DNA from: a virus
Reading direction: 5' to 3' (one strand)
IMG/VR virus record: IMGVR_UViG_3300028388_003030
Coordinates: 1-32,742 of that record
Length of the DNA stretch: 32,742 nt
This document shows, in pieces, positions 6,945 through 26,777 of this stretch. Within the stretch, counting starts at the first letter, position 1. Each line of letters begins with the position of its first letter. The translations under genes and the position numbers were made by a program. The notes under the pieces are model-generated. The model was not told the DNA's origin, searched no databases, and saw only the letters and a program-made list of their open reading frames with translations.

Positions 6945-7855
6945 TACATGTGCTCCATTCTTTCTTGTATAAACTTAATAATATCTTTATCGGTATCCAT
7001 CTTTTCACCAAATATTGCAAGAGATTCGCCGATAGAAACATTACATATATCTGTATCTATAAGATCTATCATCTTTTTTACATTGTCGATAATGTTGGTT
7101 TCTTGTGGTTCTTCTTGTATCTGTTCAACAAATACATTTTTAACAACATCTGCTATTTTAATAAAATGGATTTTGCCATTTTTAAAATACACGTAACATG
7201 GATCACGGTTTATATCAGATGGTGTATTCTTTCTTCTAGCCATTGCACCAGGACTAACAAAGTGAGTATCGCCATTTAAAACTATTCCTTGTTGTGGGTG
7301 ATAATCTGCCAAAAATACATAGTCAAATTTTGTATTAAATTCACTTATCAAAATATGTTCATATGGAATAGACTTTTCTACAATCAAGTGATGTGTCATT
7401 AAAATATTATAATCAAATGATTTATCTACAAAACGCTCGTATCGCTGCGGATTCATATCATTTGGTGCCATTACAATATGCATATTATTTATGTCTACAA
7501 ATGGATCCCCATCTGACAGCGTTATGTTTTTAAATGCATATGCTAATATACTAAGTGGGCTTGATTCTGGATGACCATCATGGCTATAATTACCACGATT
7601 TATAATTATATCAACATCTCTGTAACGACCAAACAAAGAAAATATATCCATCAGTCTTGTCATAGATATTCTTGGTGTATCAAATAAATCCCCACCGATT
7701 AATAGTGGTATTTCCCTTATTTGTGCAATTGCTAGTACATTTCTAATCTTTTTTAAGATAGAAGCATTGTAATCATCTATTCTTGAAACTGGTTGTGCAC
7801 CATAATGACAATCACATATATAAAGAAACTCATTCTTCTGATTTAATTCGTTCAT
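6944..7855 (-). CDS. Mre11/SbcD (gp47-like) phosphoesterase
   Basis: A metallophosphoesterase nuclease that processes DNA ends with Rad50. Metal-binding motifs are D15 and H17 (CDCHYG), D56 and D59 (GGDLFD), N89 to D93 (GNYSHD, where the family usually has GNHD), H155-H156 (MTHH) and H186 (ADYHP, where the family usually has GHxH). I start at the ATG at 7855 because TTAGGA precedes it; an ATG at 7873 lacks a site. The product is 303 aa, near T4 gp47. A helical C-terminal extension (about 255-303) would contact Rad50. The gene lies between the two Rad50 halves. Confidence 0.88.
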   Translation of the reverse strand: MNELNQKNEFLYICDCHYGAQPVSRIDDYNASILKKIRNVLAIAQIREIPLLIGGDLFDTPRISMTRLMDIFSLFGRYRDVDIIINRGNYSHDGHPESSPLSILAYAFKNITLSDGDPFVDINNMHIVMAPNDMNPQRYERFVDKSFDYNILMTHHLIVEKSIPYEHILISEFNTKFDYVFLADYHPQQGIVLNGDTHFVSPGAMARRKNTPSDINRDPCYVYFKNGKIHFIKIADVVKNVFVEQIQEEPQETNIIDNVKKMIDLIDTDICNVSIGESLAIFGEKMDTDKDIIKFIQERMEHM

Positions 7856-9351: not shown

Positions 9352-9946
9352 TTAACGTCTGCCCTCTGTCTTTCATATATCCATAATAGGCTATACATAC
9401 AGCATCTGCGATTCCATCATGTGCATTCTTTTTGCCCATATATAAATCAACTTCTGGAAACATCTTTAAAACAAAAGTAGTAGATGCTTCTTTGGCTTTC
9501 TTTTTTGCCAAGTTGTTTCTACTTGTGTTTTCTTTTTTAAATTCAGATTTTAGTCGTGCTATAACGTCTTTAGGAGTACCTTTTGGTGCTTTAAATTTAA
9601 TTGTCTGTGCTTTCCACGGTAATCCCTTGAGTACATTCTTTTTCCATTCTATTGGAGATACTTCAAAAAATGGAATTTTCAACATTTTAAGCACGCATAT
9701 TTGCTCACCAGTCGTTTTTCCGAATGTAAAAGTAGCAACCGATGACTGGTTTGGCATACCAAAAACGTGCTCAAATGTGCATATTAATTCATCTTTGTAT
9801 TTATTTAATCGTTTTGCGAAATCTCTAGGAGAAAATAAATCACCATTATACGGAATAATACCATATTCAACAACTGTTGCCGATTGATCTATAATGGCAA
9901 ATCCCCCATGTCTACCGGGATCTATACCTAAATAGTATTTACTCAT
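9344..9946 (-). CDS. RuvC-like Holliday junction resolvase
   Basis: RNase H-fold nuclease with the RuvC acidic residues: D9 in YLGIDPGRHGG, E59 in CTFEHVFGMP, and D177 and D181 in NAHDGIADA. At 200 aa it is a little longer than E. coli RuvC, with a basic insertion (about 120-155, rich in Lys) that could contact DNA. It probably resolves or debranches recombination intermediates before packaging, the role filled by endonuclease VII in T4. The ATG at 9946 has only a weak ribosome site. A conserved upstream element lies about 53 nt before it, so it may be the first gene of a sub-operon. Confidence 0.88.
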   Translation of the reverse strand: MSKYYLGIDPGRHGGFAIIDQSATVVEYGIIPYNGDLFSPRDFAKRLNKYKDELICTFEHVFGMPNQSSVATFTFGKTTGEQICVLKMLKIPFFEVSPIEWKKNVLKGLPWKAQTIKFKAPKGTPKDVIARLKSEFKKENTSRNNLAKKKAKEASTTFVLKMFPEVDLYMGKKNAHDGIADAVCIAYYGYMKDRGQTLSD

Positions 9947-9999
9947 AACAAGTCCGATACATTTCCGTTAACAAGTATTATTACTTATCAACTGAGGTT

Positions 10000-10037
10000 C
10001 ACACCAGAATATACGTCTAGTATGGAAGGGATTTCTT
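10000..10037 (-). promoter_or_regulatory. Upstream element, copy A (RuvC-like gene)
   Basis: On the minus strand, CCTTCCATACTAGACG is followed by TATATTCTGGTGTG. As RNA, CATACTAGA can pair with TCTGGTGTG (9 pairs, two of them G-U) around a CGTATAT loop (10000-10024). Copy B makes the same hairpin with one wobble at another position. It also holds a TATATT that could be a -10 box 61 nt before the start codon. Whether it acts as DNA promoter or RNA hairpin cannot be decided from sequence. Confidence 0.5.
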
Positions 10038-10062
10038 TGGCATTCAGGTTAAAATCCCATCA

Positions 10063-15997: not shown

Positions 15998-18784
15998 TTA
16001 GCTCCATAAGTTACGGCCTAATTTCAATGAGCCTGTTTTATTTTTATCCAATATGTAGTATTCATCCCATTTAACAGATGGAAATGCAACTACAAGAATT
16101 CGTTCAAATGCTGGAAATATGCAGTTATTCCAATAATAAGACGAGTTGTATGTTCCATTGTAATGATAAATTGGCAATGGTACTGGTTTTTTCTTAGAAT
16201 CAAATGTCAAGAAAAAGTATTGAACTTTATCACCTATCCAAAAATCCTTACCATCTTTAATCATCTGCTTTGCTACTTTAACTTGTGGTAATTCTGTTAC
16301 GTATTCTGATAAAGGTTTGGTTATTTTTTTAGAGAACATCAAATCATCTGCTATTAGCTTACCACACATAACATCCGTTCTTTTGTTTATAACCCAATCT
16401 CTTACTTCTAGCAAATCAGGGGTTTTATCGTTCAATAGCCATGTTAGAAACTCTTTTTGATACTTTTTAACAAAGTAACACACGTCATTTCTGACATATT
16501 CAAATCCTGTTATTTTCAACTTCATTGGTTCTATAATATGACCATCTAAGTAATTTAGATAGCCCGCATATCGTTTCTTGGCATTACAAATAATAAACTT
16601 ATGGAATCCTTTGTCATATGCCATTTCCAGAGTACATTCATCGCAATTAAACTTTTGTTTTGCATGTATTTCACATAATTTGGCTAAGTATTTTATTATT
16701 TTATCTATCTGTTCTGGTGTTATCTTTTCTACAAATACTGAGTCTGTATTATGTAAAAGTACATGACCATCTGCATCTACAAAGTTGTTATTATCTTCTA
16801 CTGACAAATCATAAACGTAACCATCGTATTCAATTTCAGTAATAGTTGGCTTATTCCCATTCTTTGTATATGTTTCAAAAACAAGAAATGGTGAATTTAC
16901 ATCACATTCGGTAGCTTTAAAACAATTGCCACTAGAATTTATCAATGAATGATCTTCTGTTACTTCTGTAGAATAACCACAACCAACTATTCGATATATT
17001 TTTTTGTTAGTTTTATGTTTAATAACAACATTTATTCTTTTCCACTCTGATTCTTTTGTATTAAAGTTATATGATAACGTAAAAACTTCATTATTTTTAA
17101 ATTCCCCGAATTCTTTGCCACGTTGATGTGTAAACTTATCACACATATTATAAAGTTCTTCAAATGAAACTACAGATATTTCATTGTCTATTTTTATAAT
17201 GGTTCGTCTGTTTTTAGTAACACTATCACCATATACTATTACCTTGCCCTGTTTTTCTAACCATGCAGCACATGTCTTATTAAAATACTGACCACCAAGT
17301 GTAACACTTTCTGCTATTCTGACATCATAAAATCTAGTGTGTTTTTCACCAAGAGCGCCATAAAAAGACAAACCAAACGACTTATATACATATTGTAGTG
17401 TGTCATATGTTTTATGCATTACACTGCCGGGTTCTTCTTTCGCCATTAGGTCTTTGTAATAATCCCTGTTCTTTTTCATCTTCATAATTACTTTTGGAAG
17501 AATACCAATAAAGTCTTTTCTGAACTTATGCTTTGCTGGTGTTGGTGTTGTAATTATGAATTTTTCATCAATATTATCACCATGTCTGATCAATGTATCT
17601 GGTGAAATATTCAATGTTTTAATAGTGTTAGGATATAGTGATGAAAAGTCAAATACCTTTATCCCATAATAAATACCGGCTTTTGGTGGGAATACATAAG
17701 CACCCTCATAACTAACATCATCTACATCGATTTCTCCATAATTTTTAACCATCGTTTTAAAATGGAAATGCTTATCCTCTTGCGCCTGTTTAAGCATCAA
17801 GTTATCTATCTTTCTTGTAATGTATGGATCATCACAAGGACACATACCAATGATGTTAACATTTCTAGCCGCATTTAAGTAGTTTGTTTTCTTCTCCATC
17901 TCTATCATGATGTTAACGTCTTGGATGTTATATTTTTTTAACAGCGGTCTATTGTCTTTCCACATTCTGTAAATTGAATAATCAGAATGTTCAACTTTGC
18001 CTTCTAATTCTAATTCTTTAGCAACTGCATCTAACGCATAAGATCGCAATGATACAGTTTTCTGAAATATCTTCATGAAATCCTGAGAAAATAATTTACG
18101 CCAATCTATTGATATACCATACCGCATAAAGCGACTTTTGATATATGGTAGGTCAAATGAACTAGAATTCCAACCAATCAACACATCATAGCTATTCATG
18201 ATCTTAGCCAGTTTTAACAGCATTGATTTTTCTGCTTCGTCTGTATCTTCATCAATACACAACCAAGCAATCTTGCTATTCATTTCGCCAAGGGCCACAG
18301 ATAAAATTCTATATTCCCCTGGCACTGGCTGACCATTCCTATGTCTATCATCTGTTTCTATGTCCAAAAACAGCAATTTGTGTTTATCTTCAAATTCTAT
18401 ATCATCTTGTAAACAAAAGCGTTTATAAGGTAAAACATCTGCTTCATATGTTTGTACGCTTAATAGTTCCAACTTTTGTTGTAATTCGTTAAACAGAAAG
18501 TTTTTATGCTCCCATACGAATTCCATTTCTGTGTTGAACAGTTCTGTTCTATGTGGTCTTTCTACATAAACCCTGGTGTATAATCCTTCTGGTTCACATC
18601 GCATAATAAGATTTTGATTCTCAAACGACTTAAACTGATTCTTGTAATGCTCATAATCAGAAGTTTTTACATAAAACCACCAATCAAATTTTCTTTCGCC
18701 TATCTTTTTTCTACCAGTTTCTTTATCACGATAAACAAAAGCAACTTTACTATTGCCTTTATCCCAAGCTCGCATTATTTTCAT
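15998..18784 (-). CDS. Family B DNA polymerase with mini-intein
   Basis: The replicative polymerase. Exonuclease motifs: D141/E143 (FLDIETDD), N206/D211 (GWNSSSFDLPY), and Y285/D289 (YNIQDV). Polymerase motif A has D379 (FDFSSLYPN) and motif B is KSFGLSFYG (468-476). Motif C is split: YGD (518-520), then a 159-residue intein (521-679), then TDS (680-682). After splicing the enzyme would be 769 aa with an intact YGDTDS; without splicing the active site is destroyed. The mature size is smaller than T4 gp43. Start ATG at 18784 behind CAGGT. The methyltransferase gene follows two bases after its stop. Confidence 0.95.
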   Translation of the reverse strand: MKIMRAWDKGNSKVAFVYRDKETGRKKIGERKFDWWFYVKTSDYEHYKNQFKSFENQNLIMRCEPEGLYTRVYVERPHRTELFNTEMEFVWEHKNFLFNELQQKLELLSVQTYEADVLPYKRFCLQDDIEFEDKHKLLFLDIETDDRHRNGQPVPGEYRILSVALGEMNSKIAWLCIDEDTDEAEKSMLLKLAKIMNSYDVLIGWNSSSFDLPYIKSRFMRYGISIDWRKLFSQDFMKIFQKTVSLRSYALDAVAKELELEGKVEHSDYSIYRMWKDNRPLLKKYNIQDVNIMIEMEKKTNYLNAARNVNIIGMCPCDDPYITRKIDNLMLKQAQEDKHFHFKTMVKNYGEIDVDDVSYEGAYVFPPKAGIYYGIKVFDFSSLYPNTIKTLNISPDTLIRHGDNIDEKFIITTPTPAKHKFRKDFIGILPKVIMKMKKNRDYYKDLMAKEEPGSVMHKTYDTLQYVYKSFGLSFYGALGEKHTRFYDVRIAESVTLGGQYFNKTCAAWLEKQGKVIVYGDSVTKNRRTIIKIDNEISVVSFEELYNMCDKFTHQRGKEFGEFKNNEVFTLSYNFNTKESEWKRINVVIKHKTNKKIYRIVGCGYSTEVTEDHSLINSSGNCFKATECDVNSPFLVFETYTKNGNKPTITEIEYDGYVYDLSVEDNNNFVDADGHVLLHNTDSVFVEKITPEQIDKIIKYLAKLCEIHAKQKFNCDECTLEMAYDKGFHKFIICNAKKRYAGYLNYLDGHIIEPMKLKITGFEYVRNDVCYFVKKYQKEFLTWLLNDKTPDLLEVRDWVINKRTDVMCGKLIADDLMFSKKITKPLSEYVTELPQVKVAKQMIKDGKDFWIGDKVQYFFLTFDSKKKPVPLPIYHYNGTYNSSYYWNNCIFPAFERILVVAFPSVKWDEYYILDKNKTGSLKLGRNLWS
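16748..17224 (-). other. Mini-intein in polymerase motif C (pol-c site)
   Basis: Residues 521-679 of the polymerase. It starts with Ser (YGD/SVTKNRR) and ends with His-Asn (VLLHN/TDS), with Thr as the +1 residue. Block B shows the T-x-x-H signature (VTEDHSLI, T609 and H612). Block F is EIEYDGYVYDLSVEDNNNF and block G is DADGHVLLHN. Only about 38 residues separate blocks B and F, so there is no homing endonuclease. All splicing residues I can check are present, so it is probably active. Confidence 0.92.
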
Positions 18785-20711: not shown

Positions 20712-20762
20712 TAATATACTCCATTCATTTCTTTTAATGAATAATATTCATTAATTAAAGTT

Positions 20763-20800
20763 CATACTAGAATATACGTCTAGCATGGAAGAATCTTTCT
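20763..20800 (-). promoter_or_regulatory. Upstream element, copy B (clamp loader)
   Basis: On the minus strand, GATTCTTCCATGCTAGACG is followed by TATATTCTAGTATGAAC. As RNA, CATGCTAGA pairs with TCTAGTATG (9 pairs, one G-U) around loop CGTATAT (20763-20787). A second perfect inverted repeat (TTAATGAATA with TATTCATTAA) lies between it and the start codon. Nearly 40 positions match copy A. Position relative to the start codon (about 50 nt) is the same in all three copies. Confidence 0.5.
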
Positions 20801-20837
20801 ATATCCAGTGAACTGCTTTCTAGCCCCCTGTCTATCT

Positions 20838-21469: not shown

Positions 21470-23272
21470 TTATTTTTCTTTTTCAAATTTATTTAAAACT
21501 TCTTTTTCTATATCTGTGTCTAATTTTTTAAGAATATCATCAAGGGAATCGTCTAATGAATCTGTGCCCAATGATTCTATTACTTTATCAATGACTTCTT
21601 TTTTTGAAAGCCACTGGTGTTGAATAATATCTTCTACAGTTCCTTTAACTACAAAGCTATAAAGATGCACATCTTCTGTCTGACCAGCCCTATATGCACG
21701 ACCAACACGTTGCATTGTAATTGTTGGCTTTATTGGTTTTTCCCATTCGATTACAATCTTGGCACTCTGGATATTATGACCAAAGTTGATTTTATCTGTT
21801 GTTATTAATGCTTTAATTTCAGGGTTTTTTTCAAACTCTCTAACAACATCAAACGCATCTGTGCCATCGCCACCCATACATGTAACATATTTATAGCCAA
21901 TGTTATCAAGGTGACTTGCTATGGCCGAAATTGAGCACTTAAAAAAGCTAAATATTATTACCTTTGATGATGTTTGTGTGATAATATTTTCAAGTTCTTC
22001 ATATTTTGGGTTATCAAACCAATTATGACGACTGGTATCACATAGAAACTGCCTGGCTGCTGCGTATTGTGCTGATTTATTATTAAACTGTTGTTTAACC
22101 CATCTGTAATGATCTATAAACTTATTACTTGGATAAATTTCAACATCTTTTTTATAACAAGCAACTGGTAAATCAAGCTTCTTTTTAATTATATATGGCT
22201 TGATTAAGTCTTGTATAAATCGATGGTTTTTAAACCCCGTGGCAACAAGTTCTGTTTTTATTAATGGTGGTTTATTTTTACCATAAATGTAAAGAGGATA
22301 AGTTTTTTCTGTATATTCAACGAAGTTATTATCAAAAAACCTCTGACCACCAAGAACTTTACCATCATCCAATAGCTTAAATACTGGATATAAGTCAAAA
22401 AGCTTATTTTCGATTGGTGTTCCTGACATAGGGTATCTAAATCGTGGGTTCCATTTGTCTATCATTTTAAAAAAGTTAATACTTCGCTTGGCTGACATGA
22501 AATTCTTCATTCGGTGGAATTCATCTACAATAATCGCATCAAAGTTTAACCTAATTAAATGTTCTGCATCAAAGTTACATTTCTCATAGTTTGTAATCAA
22601 AAACTTATATTGACTATTTACCAAGAAGTTTTCATATAATGTTTTTCTCTTTGCTTTTGTTTGCGTAGAAACCATTAACATCTGGGTGTCATCAAAAAAT
22701 TTTAAATAGTCTTTGTAAAAGTTCTTAACAAGTGATGCTGGTAACATAATAAGAATCTTTTTTACATTCTCATATTTTATTAAGTACTTTGCAATAACTA
22801 ATGATGTAAGTGTTTTACCAGTGCCAATGTCATTACCAATCACTATCTTCTTACCAATAATTCCATAAACAATAGTTTCTACTTGATTGCTGTAAAACTT
22901 AAATTCTTTATTGTACAACGACTTAAATCTGTCGTTTATTTCCACTTCTACTGTTTTAATGTAATCAAGAATCTTCATTACTTTTGTATCGTCTTGATTG
23001 TAAGCTCTGTCTTTTAGCTTAGATAAATACGCTCGCCAGTTGTTGTATTTTTTATAATAATCTTTTAATTCTCTTGTAAATTTTGATGGATATTTTAACT
23101 CTTTTAATCCTTTCAAAACAACTGGTAATGAAATAAATGGCACCTGAAAAGAACCATTTCTGAGTTTTGGACATAAATTAAACCCGCATCTATTTTGCAG
23201 GCTTATAAACGATTCGCCACTTTCTTCTTTTAAAACTAGCTGATTGTTTTTGTGATTATAACTAATTAACAT
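21470..23272 (-). CDS. SNF2-family superfamily 2 helicase
   Basis: Motif I GNDIGTGKT (146-154), Ia LIMLPASLVKNF, II DEFH (250-253), III MSGTPIENK (282-290), IV KVIIFSFFKCS, V NFGHNIQSA, and VI QRVGRAYRAGQT (521-532). The RAGQ ending and overall spacing place it with SNF2-like ATPases, which move on dsDNA. A role like T4 UvsW (branch migration, control of recombination-dependent replication) is plausible. The C-terminus is acidic with DSLDDSLDDILKKL. Start ATG at 23272 behind AGGT. First gene of the minus-strand operon, directly under the promoter at 23299-23339. Confidence 0.9.
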   Translation of the reverse strand: MLISYNHKNNQLVLKEESGESFISLQNRCGFNLCPKLRNGSFQVPFISLPVVLKGLKELKYPSKFTRELKDYYKKYNNWRAYLSKLKDRAYNQDDTKVMKILDYIKTVEVEINDRFKSLYNKEFKFYSNQVETIVYGIIGKKIVIGNDIGTGKTLTSLVIAKYLIKYENVKKILIMLPASLVKNFYKDYLKFFDDTQMLMVSTQTKAKRKTLYENFLVNSQYKFLITNYEKCNFDAEHLIRLNFDAIIVDEFHRMKNFMSAKRSINFFKMIDKWNPRFRYPMSGTPIENKLFDLYPVFKLLDDGKVLGGQRFFDNNFVEYTEKTYPLYIYGKNKPPLIKTELVATGFKNHRFIQDLIKPYIIKKKLDLPVACYKKDVEIYPSNKFIDHYRWVKQQFNNKSAQYAAARQFLCDTSRHNWFDNPKYEELENIITQTSSKVIIFSFFKCSISAIASHLDNIGYKYVTCMGGDGTDAFDVVREFEKNPEIKALITTDKINFGHNIQSAKIVIEWEKPIKPTITMQRVGRAYRAGQTEDVHLYSFVVKGTVEDIIQHQWLSKKEVIDKVIESLGTDSLDDSLDDILKKLDTDIEKEVLNKFEKEK

Positions 23273-23298
23273 TGATTTACCTGTTTTCTAGTTCCTGA

Positions 23299-23339
23299 AT
23301 TATAGCATTCATCCTAACATTCATTTGATTTATTGTCAA
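23299..23339 (-). promoter_or_regulatory. Promoter region for the minus-strand replication operon
   Basis: A perfect TATAAT (23299-23304 on the minus strand) has an upstream TG in the extended -10 position (TGCTATAAT) but no matching -35. A TTGACA (23334-23339) farther upstream pairs better with TAGGAT after 17 bases. Either or both could start transcription 20-45 nt before the SNF2-like gene. Confidence 0.6.
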
Positions 23340-23364
23340 GCAAAAAAATATTTTTAAAAAAATC

Positions 23365-23393
23365 TTGACAAACTCCAAACAATCGTTTATTCT
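23365..23393 (+). promoter_or_regulatory. Sigma70-like promoter facing right
   Basis: TTGACA (23365-23370), a 17-base spacer and TATTCT (23388-23393), with an A/T-rich upstream region. The predicted start near 23400 coincides with the beginning of the GC-richer, hairpin-dense segment and precedes no convincing ORF, which supports an RNA product. Confidence 0.7.
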
Positions 23394-23399
23394 TAAATT

Positions 23400-23810
23400 G
23401 CCGTAAAAAGCACGGGTGGAGTTAGTCCACCGAGGGGCGAAGGGGACAGTTAATCACTTCGCCAATCCTATCGCTAAGACACCCATCTTAACCAAATGGA
23501 CTCTTGTTGCAGCCGTAGGTACCCAACTAGATACAAGTTTCCTTAGCGAAGCTATGTATCAAAGACGTTTTATTCTTGCATTGGATAAGCGTTTTCGTTG
23601 GAAGGTTATTGTTCATACGCGATATGACAATGGCGTGCAAAAAGCGAAAGCATTACAAAATGCGATTAGACACGTCTTGTTACGCACATGACATGGTAAT
23701 AAGAATTACTAACAATAACGACTGGTGTAAAAACCTAATAGCCGAATGGTAAACGCCAAAATATTTGAAATGTAAATATTTTGGGGGAACCTAAAGGAGG
23801 GGGTTCTGCT
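23400..23810 (+). ncRNA. Candidate structured non-coding RNA, about 410 nt
   Basis: Begins at the predicted start of the promoter at 23365. It is GC-richer than its surroundings and contains many perfect or near-perfect helices: 23415-23420/23426-23431, 23436-23442/23457-23463, 23471-23478/23542-23549 (enclosing a multi-branched segment), 23608-23617/23623-23631, 23650-23654/23659-23663, 23696-23700/23705-23709, 23756-23766/23774-23784 (11 bp) and 23787-23791/23802-23806. No ribosome site and no convincing protein. I do not recognise it as tmRNA, RNase P RNA, a group I intron or a named riboswitch. Large ornate phage RNAs such as GOLLD and ROOL are a possible comparison. The 3' end is uncertain. 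Confidence 0.55.
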
Positions 23811-24045
23811 AAACAGTTAATCAGTTAAATACCAGATATTAATCTGTTAAATATCTGTTAAATTTCAGATAAATATCTGTTAAATTTCAGATAAATATCT
23901 GTTAAATTTCAGATAAATATCAGTTAAATTTCAGATAAATATCAGTTAAATTTCAGATAAATATCAGGGTTACTACTGGTTGATGGATGTTTCATAGAAT
24001 ACCTTATCATACCTGCTAAAATTTCAGATAGAAAGTTGCTAAATA
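23811..24045 (+). other. AT-rich spacer with repeat array, possible origin
   Basis: 235 bp without a gene between the RNA-like segment and the gene at 24046. It contains the 22-bp repeats, partial copies on both sides (around 23826-23848, 23959-23966 and 24018-24029) and no strong promoter. Its place between divergent operons, next to a promoter-driven RNA, fits an origin or partition site, as inference. Confidence 0.45.
23849..23958 (+). repeat. Five 22-bp tandem repeats (iteron-like)
   Basis: Exact units start at 23849, 23871, 23893, 23915 and 23937. Each contains an inverted half-site pair ATCTG...CAGAT separated by TTAAATTT. Units 4 and 5 differ from 1-3 by a single T-to-A change (CAG instead of CTG). 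The 22-bp period is two helical turns, so a bound protein would line up on one face. There are no spacers, so this is not CRISPR. Confidence 0.9.
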
Positions 24046-24387
24046 ATGGATAAATTTAAAAAACTACCACTTTTGGTTGATGTTGATGATTTTTTCAAAT
24101 CAATTAAGGCCTACAACTGTCTAAAAGTTGAAAAATTTCTGGATGTTAAACTTTCAGCCAATGAAATCACTAAACTAAAAATCCCCAATTATTTAATTAA
24201 ACTTAGCCAAGATTTTAATTTTCCACTAGAACAATTAATTAATTGCATTTTGCGTGATTTTGTGATAAAATTTAATTATGGTGAAGGGAAATTAAAGAAA
24301 TCTATCTGGAAAAATTTTCAGAAGATTCAAAACTTATCACCACAACAAAAGGCCAGTATTTTTAAGGCTTTATTTAAGGAGATTTGA
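24046..24387 (+). CDS. Hypothetical protein, 113 aa, next to the repeat array
   Basis: ATG at 24046 with a weak GAAAG upstream. Mostly helical, basic, with no recognised domain (VDVDDFFKSIKAYNCLKVEK; FPLEQLINCILRDFVIKF; SPQQKASIFKALF). It is the first gene after the 22-bp repeats, the usual position for an iteron-binding initiator or partition regulator, but no helix-turn-helix is clear. The methyltransferase gene begins seven bases after its stop. Confidence 0.6.
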   Translation: MDKFKKLPLLVDVDDFFKSIKAYNCLKVEKFLDVKLSANEITKLKIPNYLIKLSQDFNFPLEQLINCILRDFVIKFNYGEGKLKKSIWKNFQKIQNLSPQQKASIFKALFKEI

Positions 24388-25636: not shown

Positions 25637-25948
25637 ATGAAAACAATAACAAGACGAAGAACATTTAACAACTTAATCATATATGCCAATCAAGAACAAT
25701 TGGATAGTTGTCTAAGGCTTCTAATTAAATTTAAGAAGAAGTTAGTTAAACTGATTCCATATAAGCTCCACAGGCTATCTATTGATATAATAAATTTTGA
25801 TTTTTTTTCTTGCTCTTTGATATCAAATTGTGATAAGATTGAATTCATGTTAGACAGGGAACAAGTGATATCGGTTATTAACGATAACACAAAACTAATA
25901 AACAAGGTATTAAACAAAGGAGTAAATTATGACAAACAAAATAATTAA
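25637..25948 (+). CDS. Hypothetical basic protein, 103 aa
   Basis: ATG at 25637 downstream of the promoter at 25562; ribosome site weak. Basic first half (MKTITRRRTF; LIKFKKKLVKLIPYKLHRL) and a hydrophobic middle (SIDIINFDFFSCSLISN). Its end overlaps the next gene by 20 bases, which includes that gene's ribosome site. No family recognised. Confidence 0.6.
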   Translation: MKTITRRRTFNNLIIYANQEQLDSCLRLLIKFKKKLVKLIPYKLHRLSIDIINFDFFSCSLISNCDKIEFMLDREQVISVINDNTKLINKVLNKGVNYDKQNN

Positions 25949-26777
25949 CAGTATTGATGATCTGGATGATCTCGACTTGGATTTGGAAGATACAAATATT
26001 TCTTCTGTAGATGATGAACTAGACTTGGATGATGTGTCTGAAAATAAAGAAGATACAAGCATTGATGATCTGGAATTAGATGATGTAGTTCCTGACGAAA
26101 AACCAACACATGATCTGGAATTAGATGATGTGTCTGAAAATAAAGAAGATACAAGCATTGATGATCTCGACTTGGATGATGTAGTTCCTGACGAAAAACC
26201 AACAGATGATCTGGAATTAGAAGATGCAGTTCCAGAAGAAATAGAATTGGATTTGGAATTGGAAGTAAATGAACAGCCAAAAGCAGAAGTTAAGCAAGTT
26301 GAAACTAAAGCTAAAGGCACACCAAAATCAGAACCAAAAGCTAAAGTCACACCAAAATCAGAACCAAAAGCTAAAGTCACACCAAAATCAGAAGTTAAGC
26401 AAGCTGAACCAAAATCAGAACCAAATGTAGAAGTTAAGCAAGTTGTTTCTGTACCAGAAAATAAAACAGAAGCATACTTGGATAATGCGGTTGATATGTC
26501 TAAGATAAACGATCAGCATTATAGATTTCTTGTAAAACCTTTAAATCTTCCCAACTATGACAAAATGGTAGAAGATTGTATTAGAATTAATGGCAATATG
26601 ATAAACCCAATTCAACTAGTAATTGAAGAAGGGGAATTCAGACTTATTTCTGGATTTAATACGTTTGATGTTCTTAAAAAATTAGACGTTAAAACAACAT
26701 GGGCGATTATTTTCTCGGAAATGAATACATATCAAGTTGCAAAGAGATATATAACCGCCACACATCATTTGGATTAA
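25929..26777 (+). CDS. Acidic-repeat protein with ParB-like C-terminal domain
   Basis: ATG at 25929 behind AAAGGAG. Three parts are visible. Residues 1-115 are highly acidic, with 32-residue repeats built from LDLDDVSENKEDTSIDDLEL. Residues 115-180 are Lys/Pro-rich with a 10-residue repeat (PKSEPKAKVT), probably a flexible linker. Residues about 190-282 resemble a ParB/sulfiredoxin-type N-terminal fold (INPIQLVIEEGEFRLISGFN). Where ParB has GxRR for nucleotide contact, this protein has GFNTFD, so CTPase activity is doubtful. It could bind DNA-related partners near the origin-like region. Confidence 0.6.
   Translation: MTNKIINSIDDLDDLDLDLEDTNISSVDDELDLDDVSENKEDTSIDDLELDDVVPDEKPTHDLELDDVSENKEDTSIDDLDLDDVVPDEKPTDDLELEDAVPEEIELDLELEVNEQPKAEVKQVETKAKGTPKSEPKAKVTPKSEPKAKVTPKSEVKQAEPKSEPNVEVKQVVSVPENKTEAYLDNAVDMSKINDQHYRFLVKPLNLPNYDKMVEDCIRINGNMINPIQLVIEEGEFRLISGFNTFDVLKKLDVKTTWAIIFSEMNTYQVAKRYITATHHLD
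26028..26219 (+). repeat. Two 96-bp in-frame repeats (acidic region)
   Basis: Copies start at 26028 and 26124 and encode the DDVSENKEDTSIDDL... unit twice, with few base changes. In-frame duplication within the acidic domain of the ParB-like gene. Confidence 0.85.
26307..26396 (+). repeat. Three 30-bp in-frame repeats (Lys/Pro linker)
   Basis: Copies start at 26307, 26337 and 26367 and encode KAKVTPKSEP-type units; the first differs by one base (GGC for GTC) and the third diverges at its end. Confidence 0.85.

Follow-up and report, generated by a model that had tools for sequence, protein, structure and literature searches.

A structured noncoding RNA beside an iteron-like repeat array in two related environmental phages

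Comparative analysis shows that a predicted structured noncoding RNA of ~410 nt is conserved at the RNA level in two related phages. In the window (the whole stretch of DNA analysed here, a 32.7-kb phage fragment from an IMG/VR record) it spans 23400-~23810 on the + strand, and it is very probably a real RNA. It represents a new RNA family with two members; viral and genome collections gave one other phage only. Its likeliest function, to which we assign a probability of about 0.4 from sequence and gene context, would be that of a preprimer or R-loop RNA at a transcription-primed origin.

Genomic setting of the RNA and its relative

The RNA lies between two operons that diverge from 23272/24046. 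The leftward operon encodes an SNF2-family SF2 helicase (21470-23272, − strand), which is the divergent neighbor, together with a clamp loader, a family B polymerase, a DnaB-like helicase, a ligase, and a 5′-3′ exonuclease. The rightward operon encodes a 113-aa protein (24046-24387, + strand), a DNA methyltransferase, and a DnaG-like primase. Two back-to-back promoters, the GC-rich stretch at 23400-23810, and an 11-bp repeat array at 23813-23967 fill the space between them. A sequence-only reading had placed the RNA between the replication operon and an iteron-like array, and we confirmed the array as well as the leftward replication genes.

Several other features of these genomes were observed. 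The family B DNA polymerase (15998-18784, − strand) carries a mini-intein at its YGD/TDS motif (16700-17270), with a Pfam intein splicing match, and the mini-intein is missing from the polymerase of the relative (L162). A 72-bp tandem repeat of 6.2 copies occupies positions 1-448 at the contig edge. The protein at 25929-26777 has an acidic tandem-repeat region built of 45-51-bp units (26012-26425) and a weak ParB-like match in its C-terminal part. A hairpin-rich mRNA leader element, TATACTGGACGTATATTCCAGTATAAAC...GTTAACAA...TTGTTAACGGAAATAAATCGG, recurs upstream of several genes in both phages, with copies at ~9930-10040 and ~20725-20830 (both − strand) in the window, at ~7650-7760 and ~12753 in L162, and at ~7150, ~9680, and ~12890 in L167. 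The element resembles a shared 5′ leader RNA or a shared promoter.

The RNA would be driven by a sigma70-like promoter, TTGACA-17-TATTCT (23365-23393, + strand), that agrees with the consensus at 10/12 positions. The consensus-like promoter pointing into the stretch had been called from the sequence alone and is borne out: the related phage has both hexamers intact, while 4/17 spacer positions have changed. Promoter matches are no commoner here than by chance (5 in 1.5 kb vs. 6.9 in shuffles), and the promoter call therefore rests on this conservation. A divergent promoter, TTGACA-17-TAGGAT (23311-23339, − strand), would serve the helicase operon; the −35 boxes of the two promoters are ~26 bp apart, and L162 has a promoter-like site (632, + strand) at the place equivalent to the helicase-operon promoter. 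The start of the RNA was set from its promoter and the end from the terminal closing helix. We saw no intrinsic terminator at the 3′ end of the RNA and no promoter-like site on the − strand inside it. A weak terminator-like site is present on the − strand at 23431-23415.

A scan with a 91-codon open frame found one relative, IMG/VR contig L119/L002. L119 matches a portion of the metagenome-assembled genome (MAG) contig DYJV01000056.1 at 100% identity along 7462 nt and is the same molecule as the MAG-binned contigs L162/L167, of which L167 is the right half of the related phage and lies in the same bin. The MAG is from sample AS07-7, which from its name we take to be the Frasassi sulfidic cave. 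MAG DYJV01, which holds L162/L167, is labeled Candidatus Methylomirabilis; the binning may indicate the host or reflect contamination. The replication genes of the relative include a weak gp32-like match. DNA identity between the two phages is 85% in the RNA region (554 nt) vs. 75% in the adjacent helicase codons.

Structure of the RNA and its preservation

The stretch had been described as GC-richer than its surroundings, and its GC content is 42% vs. 32% for the window, whose maximum over 200 nt (46%) falls in the RNA. Against dinucleotide shuffles, the + strand folds with a minimum free energy (MFE) of −121.4 and a z score of −3.15, and 1/100 shuffles was as good. The − strand has a similar z score (−3.09), and thus folding energy alone neither names a strand nor proves an RNA. 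The copy in the relative has a fold z score of −1.80.

Base-pair changes between the two phages are more telling. When the RNA fold predicted from the window alone was applied to the relative and the substitutions were reshuffled, we found seven double compensatory changes vs. 1.1 expected and nine broken pairs vs. 21 expected, and the reverse test agrees. Without the variable arm at 23618-23690 there are still three double changes vs. 0.5 expected (P 0.0096; 0.0045 in the reverse test) and fewer broken pairs than expected (P 0.006 and 0.0035). The opposite-strand fold breaks 21 and 17 pairs vs. 9 and 12 for the + strand, and the functional strand is therefore the one into which the promoter points. 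With two sequences compared, support for individual helices is thin.

That 23416-23691 (+ strand) is instead a 91-codon protein gene is barely conceivable: the frame is open and has a tblastn match in the relative (68% over residues 1-68), but there stop codons and three single-base indels interrupt it, 8/9 changed codons in the 47 collinear codons are nonsynonymous and one synonymous vs. 141/336 in the helicase, and the frame has neither a protein family match nor a ribosome site. The sequence-only reading had likewise seen no convincing protein or ribosome site, and it had named conservation of the frame rather than of the helices as evidence against an RNA. We found the frame broken and the helices kept, an outcome that favors an RNA.

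The fold is closed by a helix in which AGCA (23409-23412) pairs with UGCU (23807-23810); in the relative, a C-G pair of this helix becomes U·G and an A-U pair becomes G·U. Hairpin P2 (GGUGGA/UCCACC, 23415-23431) shows two compensatory changes, from GG..CC to AA..UU. Hairpin P3 (GGCGAAG/CUUCGCC, 23436-23463) carries in its loop the iteron-like text ACAGUUAAUCA (23446-23456). It is followed by an irregular conserved arm, CCUAU..GUAGG (23467-23519), and by an arm closed by CCAAC/GUUGG (23523-23601) that holds two hairpins (23530-23560 and 23562-23595), the first of which has one compensatory change from U-A to G-C. A three-way arm (23605-23719) has an invariant base, GUUAUUGU/ACAAUAAC, and an invariant hairpin at 23694-23711; the sequence of its tip (~23618-23690) has diverged, and a hairpin fold is found there in both phages. 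An AU-rich hairpin, CCAAAAUAUUUG/UAAAUAUUUUGG (23756-23784), had been noted near the 3′ end with a length of 11 bp; the hairpin is present and its length is 12 bp (23756-23767/23773-23784). The G-cluster element GGGGGAACCTAAAGGAGGGGG (23783-23803) is invariant in both phages. Within it, AAAGGAGG has no further copy on either strand of the window, L162, or L167, and in L162 and L167 runs of five Gs occur only in this element.

We do not retain as a key element the 8-bp long-range pair between 23471-23478 and 23542-23549 that had been singled out in the sequence. The match, TCGCTAAG/CTTAGCGA, is exact as described. Shuffles average 1.66 such pairs and 71% of them have at least one, and the pair is missing from both MFE folds, competes with supported helices, and in the relative contains one G·U and one broken pair.

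Searches for known families and further members

The RNA had been said to match no recognizable class, and this holds: a cmscan with Rfam 15 at gathering scores gave no match to the RNA region, nor did a scan of 23250-24100 at E ≤ 10. The suggestion that it belongs to the large ornate phage RNAs is not upheld, as GOLLD, ROOL, and OLE gave no hit in that scan even at E ≤ 10 and were not detected at gathering scores anywhere in the window, L162, or L167. Group I and group II introns, RNase P, and tmRNA were considered and found no support in the Rfam scan. ARAGORN, scanning for tRNA and tmRNA, returned only a tRNA-Gln elsewhere. A GC-richer stretch in L167 (660-910, CCCCTCGCTTTAGCCGTGGGGAGGC...), which interrupts the space separating a short ORF from a phosphoesterase-like ORF, also has no Rfam match.

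Homologs in related phages had been proposed as a check, and the search was partly productive, yielding the one relative and no further members in viral and genome collections. A 'distant' blastn against 50,697 phage records returned only two 23-nt matches, and a plasmid nucleotide search only short chance matches. The pattern CTTGTTNCAGCCGTAGGTA found mostly one unrelated sequence common to many contigs, plus chance matches. The patterns AGCCGAATGGTAAAC and CTTAGCGAAGCTATG found L119 and otherwise chance matches only, and two longer patterns matched L119 only. The helicase, used as bait, drew in relatives of 23-26% only, all without the RNA. Among the loci searched with a covariance model built on the 3′ domain, only the two phages matched, and the RNA was not found in one other genome searched from the phylum of the MAG.

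The repeat array and candidate functions

The iteron-like array (23813-23967, + strand) has an 11-bp period, alternating at 22 bp, and a GC content of 0.20. No other 150-nt stretch of the window is as AT-rich, and the array directly adjoins the GC-richest one. The array of the relative consists of 5.6 units of 11 bp followed by at least 8.6 units of 10 bp, with a different unit, and neither the sequence nor the unit length of the array is conserved between the phages. The 113-aa protein, the first gene past the array, has 69% identity in the relative and is a candidate array-binding protein by position. It has no match in PDB or Pfam, and its AlphaFold2 model (pLDDT 48) is unusable. A ribbon-helix-helix pattern that we had suspected in it was not confirmed by the PDB and Pfam searches.

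In both phages the P3 loop (position 46) contains the longest match of the RNA to the array, ACAGTTAATCA in the window and ACTAGTTAA in the relative. The loop text differs between the phages and tracks the repeat of each. With P values of 0.013 and 0.146 that are not independent, the match is statistically weak, and we treat it as a lead only. Loop and repeats evolving together would follow if the RNA recognized its own origin, and the two phages suggest such joint change. It is improbable that the iteron-like copy in the loop pairs with or mimics the array and that the RNA, beyond an initiator protein, thereby selects the origin or counts copies.

In the preprimer reading, host RNA polymerase would start at the conserved promoter and the RNA would fold during synthesis. 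The 3′ segment with the invariant G clusters would exit the polymerase just ahead of the AT-rich 11-bp array, where the transcript may stay hybridized to the template as an R-loop and so open the array. The processed 3′ end of the RNA could then prime leading-strand synthesis by the T4-like replisome, while an iteron-bound protein and the folded RNA would set the frequency of initiation. Overall, such a preprimer or origin RNA would work in the manner of ColE1 RNA II or a T4 R-loop origin, supplemented by an iteron array.

The origin link is plausible. It draws on the invariant, almost unique G clusters placed before the AT-rich array, on a T4-like replisome, and on the iteron-like loop that follows the repeat of each phage. 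The abutment of GC-richest and AT-richest stretches also speaks for it, as do the 11-bp iteron arrays of the two phages, whose units differ, and divergent operons with PolB, a clamp loader, a DnaB-like helicase, a DnaG-like primase, and a 5′-3′ exonuclease. An RNA primer is not obligatory, since the phage encodes its own primase. GC skew changes at the point where the genes switch direction, which makes it no independent argument for an origin.

It is possible, though somewhat unlikely, that the RNA instead belongs to a long structured 5′ leader (~640 nt), which would regulate the genes of the rightward operon from 24046 in cis, whether as riboregulator, attenuator, or antiterminator. Structured leaders are common, no terminator was found at the 3′ end, the next gene on the right is co-oriented, and the homolog of that gene opens the right-hand contig of the relative just after a repeat-like sequence. 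However, the closing helix 23409/23807 makes the RNA a self-contained domain, more than 150 bp of array with neither sequence nor unit length conserved precede the first gene, and we saw no terminator or ribosome-site switch.

A free trans-acting RNA, whether it binds the ribosome through an exposed AAAGGAGG, regulates the host, or self-assembles as an ornate RNA, is unlikely. AAAGGAGG, which is complementary to the usual 16S 3′ end, is invariant and found nowhere else in the three phage contigs, and the high conservation and closed multi-arm fold would suit such a role. The palindrome ACUAGU in the P3 loop of the relative would suit it too, but is absent from that of the window, and Rfam gave no match to the known ornate families. 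A trans-acting role also leaves unexplained the fixed position of the RNA against the iteron array in both phages.

Quite improbable is a DNA-level element, in which the 113-aa protein would bind a partition-type or operator array and the adjacent conserved stretch would consist mainly of DNA binding sites. ParR/parC arrays have an 11-bp period, one helical turn, which the period here fits, and there is a weak ParB-like match nearby (phrog_16545, E 0.025). Compensatory and G·U-type changes that favor the + strand are unexpected for DNA sites, and the 113-aa protein offers neither a family match nor a usable model in support.

Comparison with known RNA-linked origins

ColE1 RNA II is a structured preprimer of several hundred nt with a G-rich segment before the origin. 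The preprimer reading gives the window the same succession of promoter, structured RNA of several hundred nt, and G-rich segment before a suspected origin. The two RNAs have no sequence match, however, and ColE1 lacks an iteron array while the phage has its own replisome. As for a counterpart of ColE1 RNA I, we saw no antisense promoter-like site on the − strand within the RNA.

Origins of T4 combine a promoter with an AT-rich unwinding element and use the transcript as primer (PMC3016281). The window resembles T4 oriF and oriG in having a promoter followed by an AT-rich element and in encoding PolB, a clamp loader, a DnaB-like helicase, a primase, and a 5′-3′ exonuclease, but its array lies 400 nt from the promoter. 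The minimal T4 origin is ~100 bp, with neither a large folded RNA nor iterons described as needed (PMC3016281). R-loops at oriF are independent of specific sequences (PMC3016281), which counts against the origin reading.

RNA-based prophage origins are known in cluster A mycobacteriophages (PMC7157519). They too tie a phage noncoding RNA to replication without a recognized initiator protein, a link that is a candidate one here. Those origins differ in being parABS-proximal and in belonging to prophages, and there is no sequence match in the phage collection. Like GOLLD and ROOL (PMC12286853), the RNA is phage-encoded, noncoding, and elaborately folded; it differs in being shorter (~410 nt), in having no Rfam match, and in lying beside an iteron array rather than in tRNA islands. 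The window shares with iteron and ParR/parC arrays its tandem direct repeats of 11 bp and the small protein gene next to them, but here a structured RNA stands between promoter and array, and the array-binding protein is only a candidate.

The RNA thus founds a new structured family, with two members so far, from poorly known environmental phages, and it sits where a transcription-primed origin would be. Mechanistically, it may be a new variation on RNA-linked phage origins and is not placed in any of them. RNA-based replication origins are known from few phages, and the present case pairs a structured RNA with an iteron array. Should its role at an origin hold true, this system would test how RNA structure, G clusters, and iterons jointly set initiation in a phage with a T4-like replisome.
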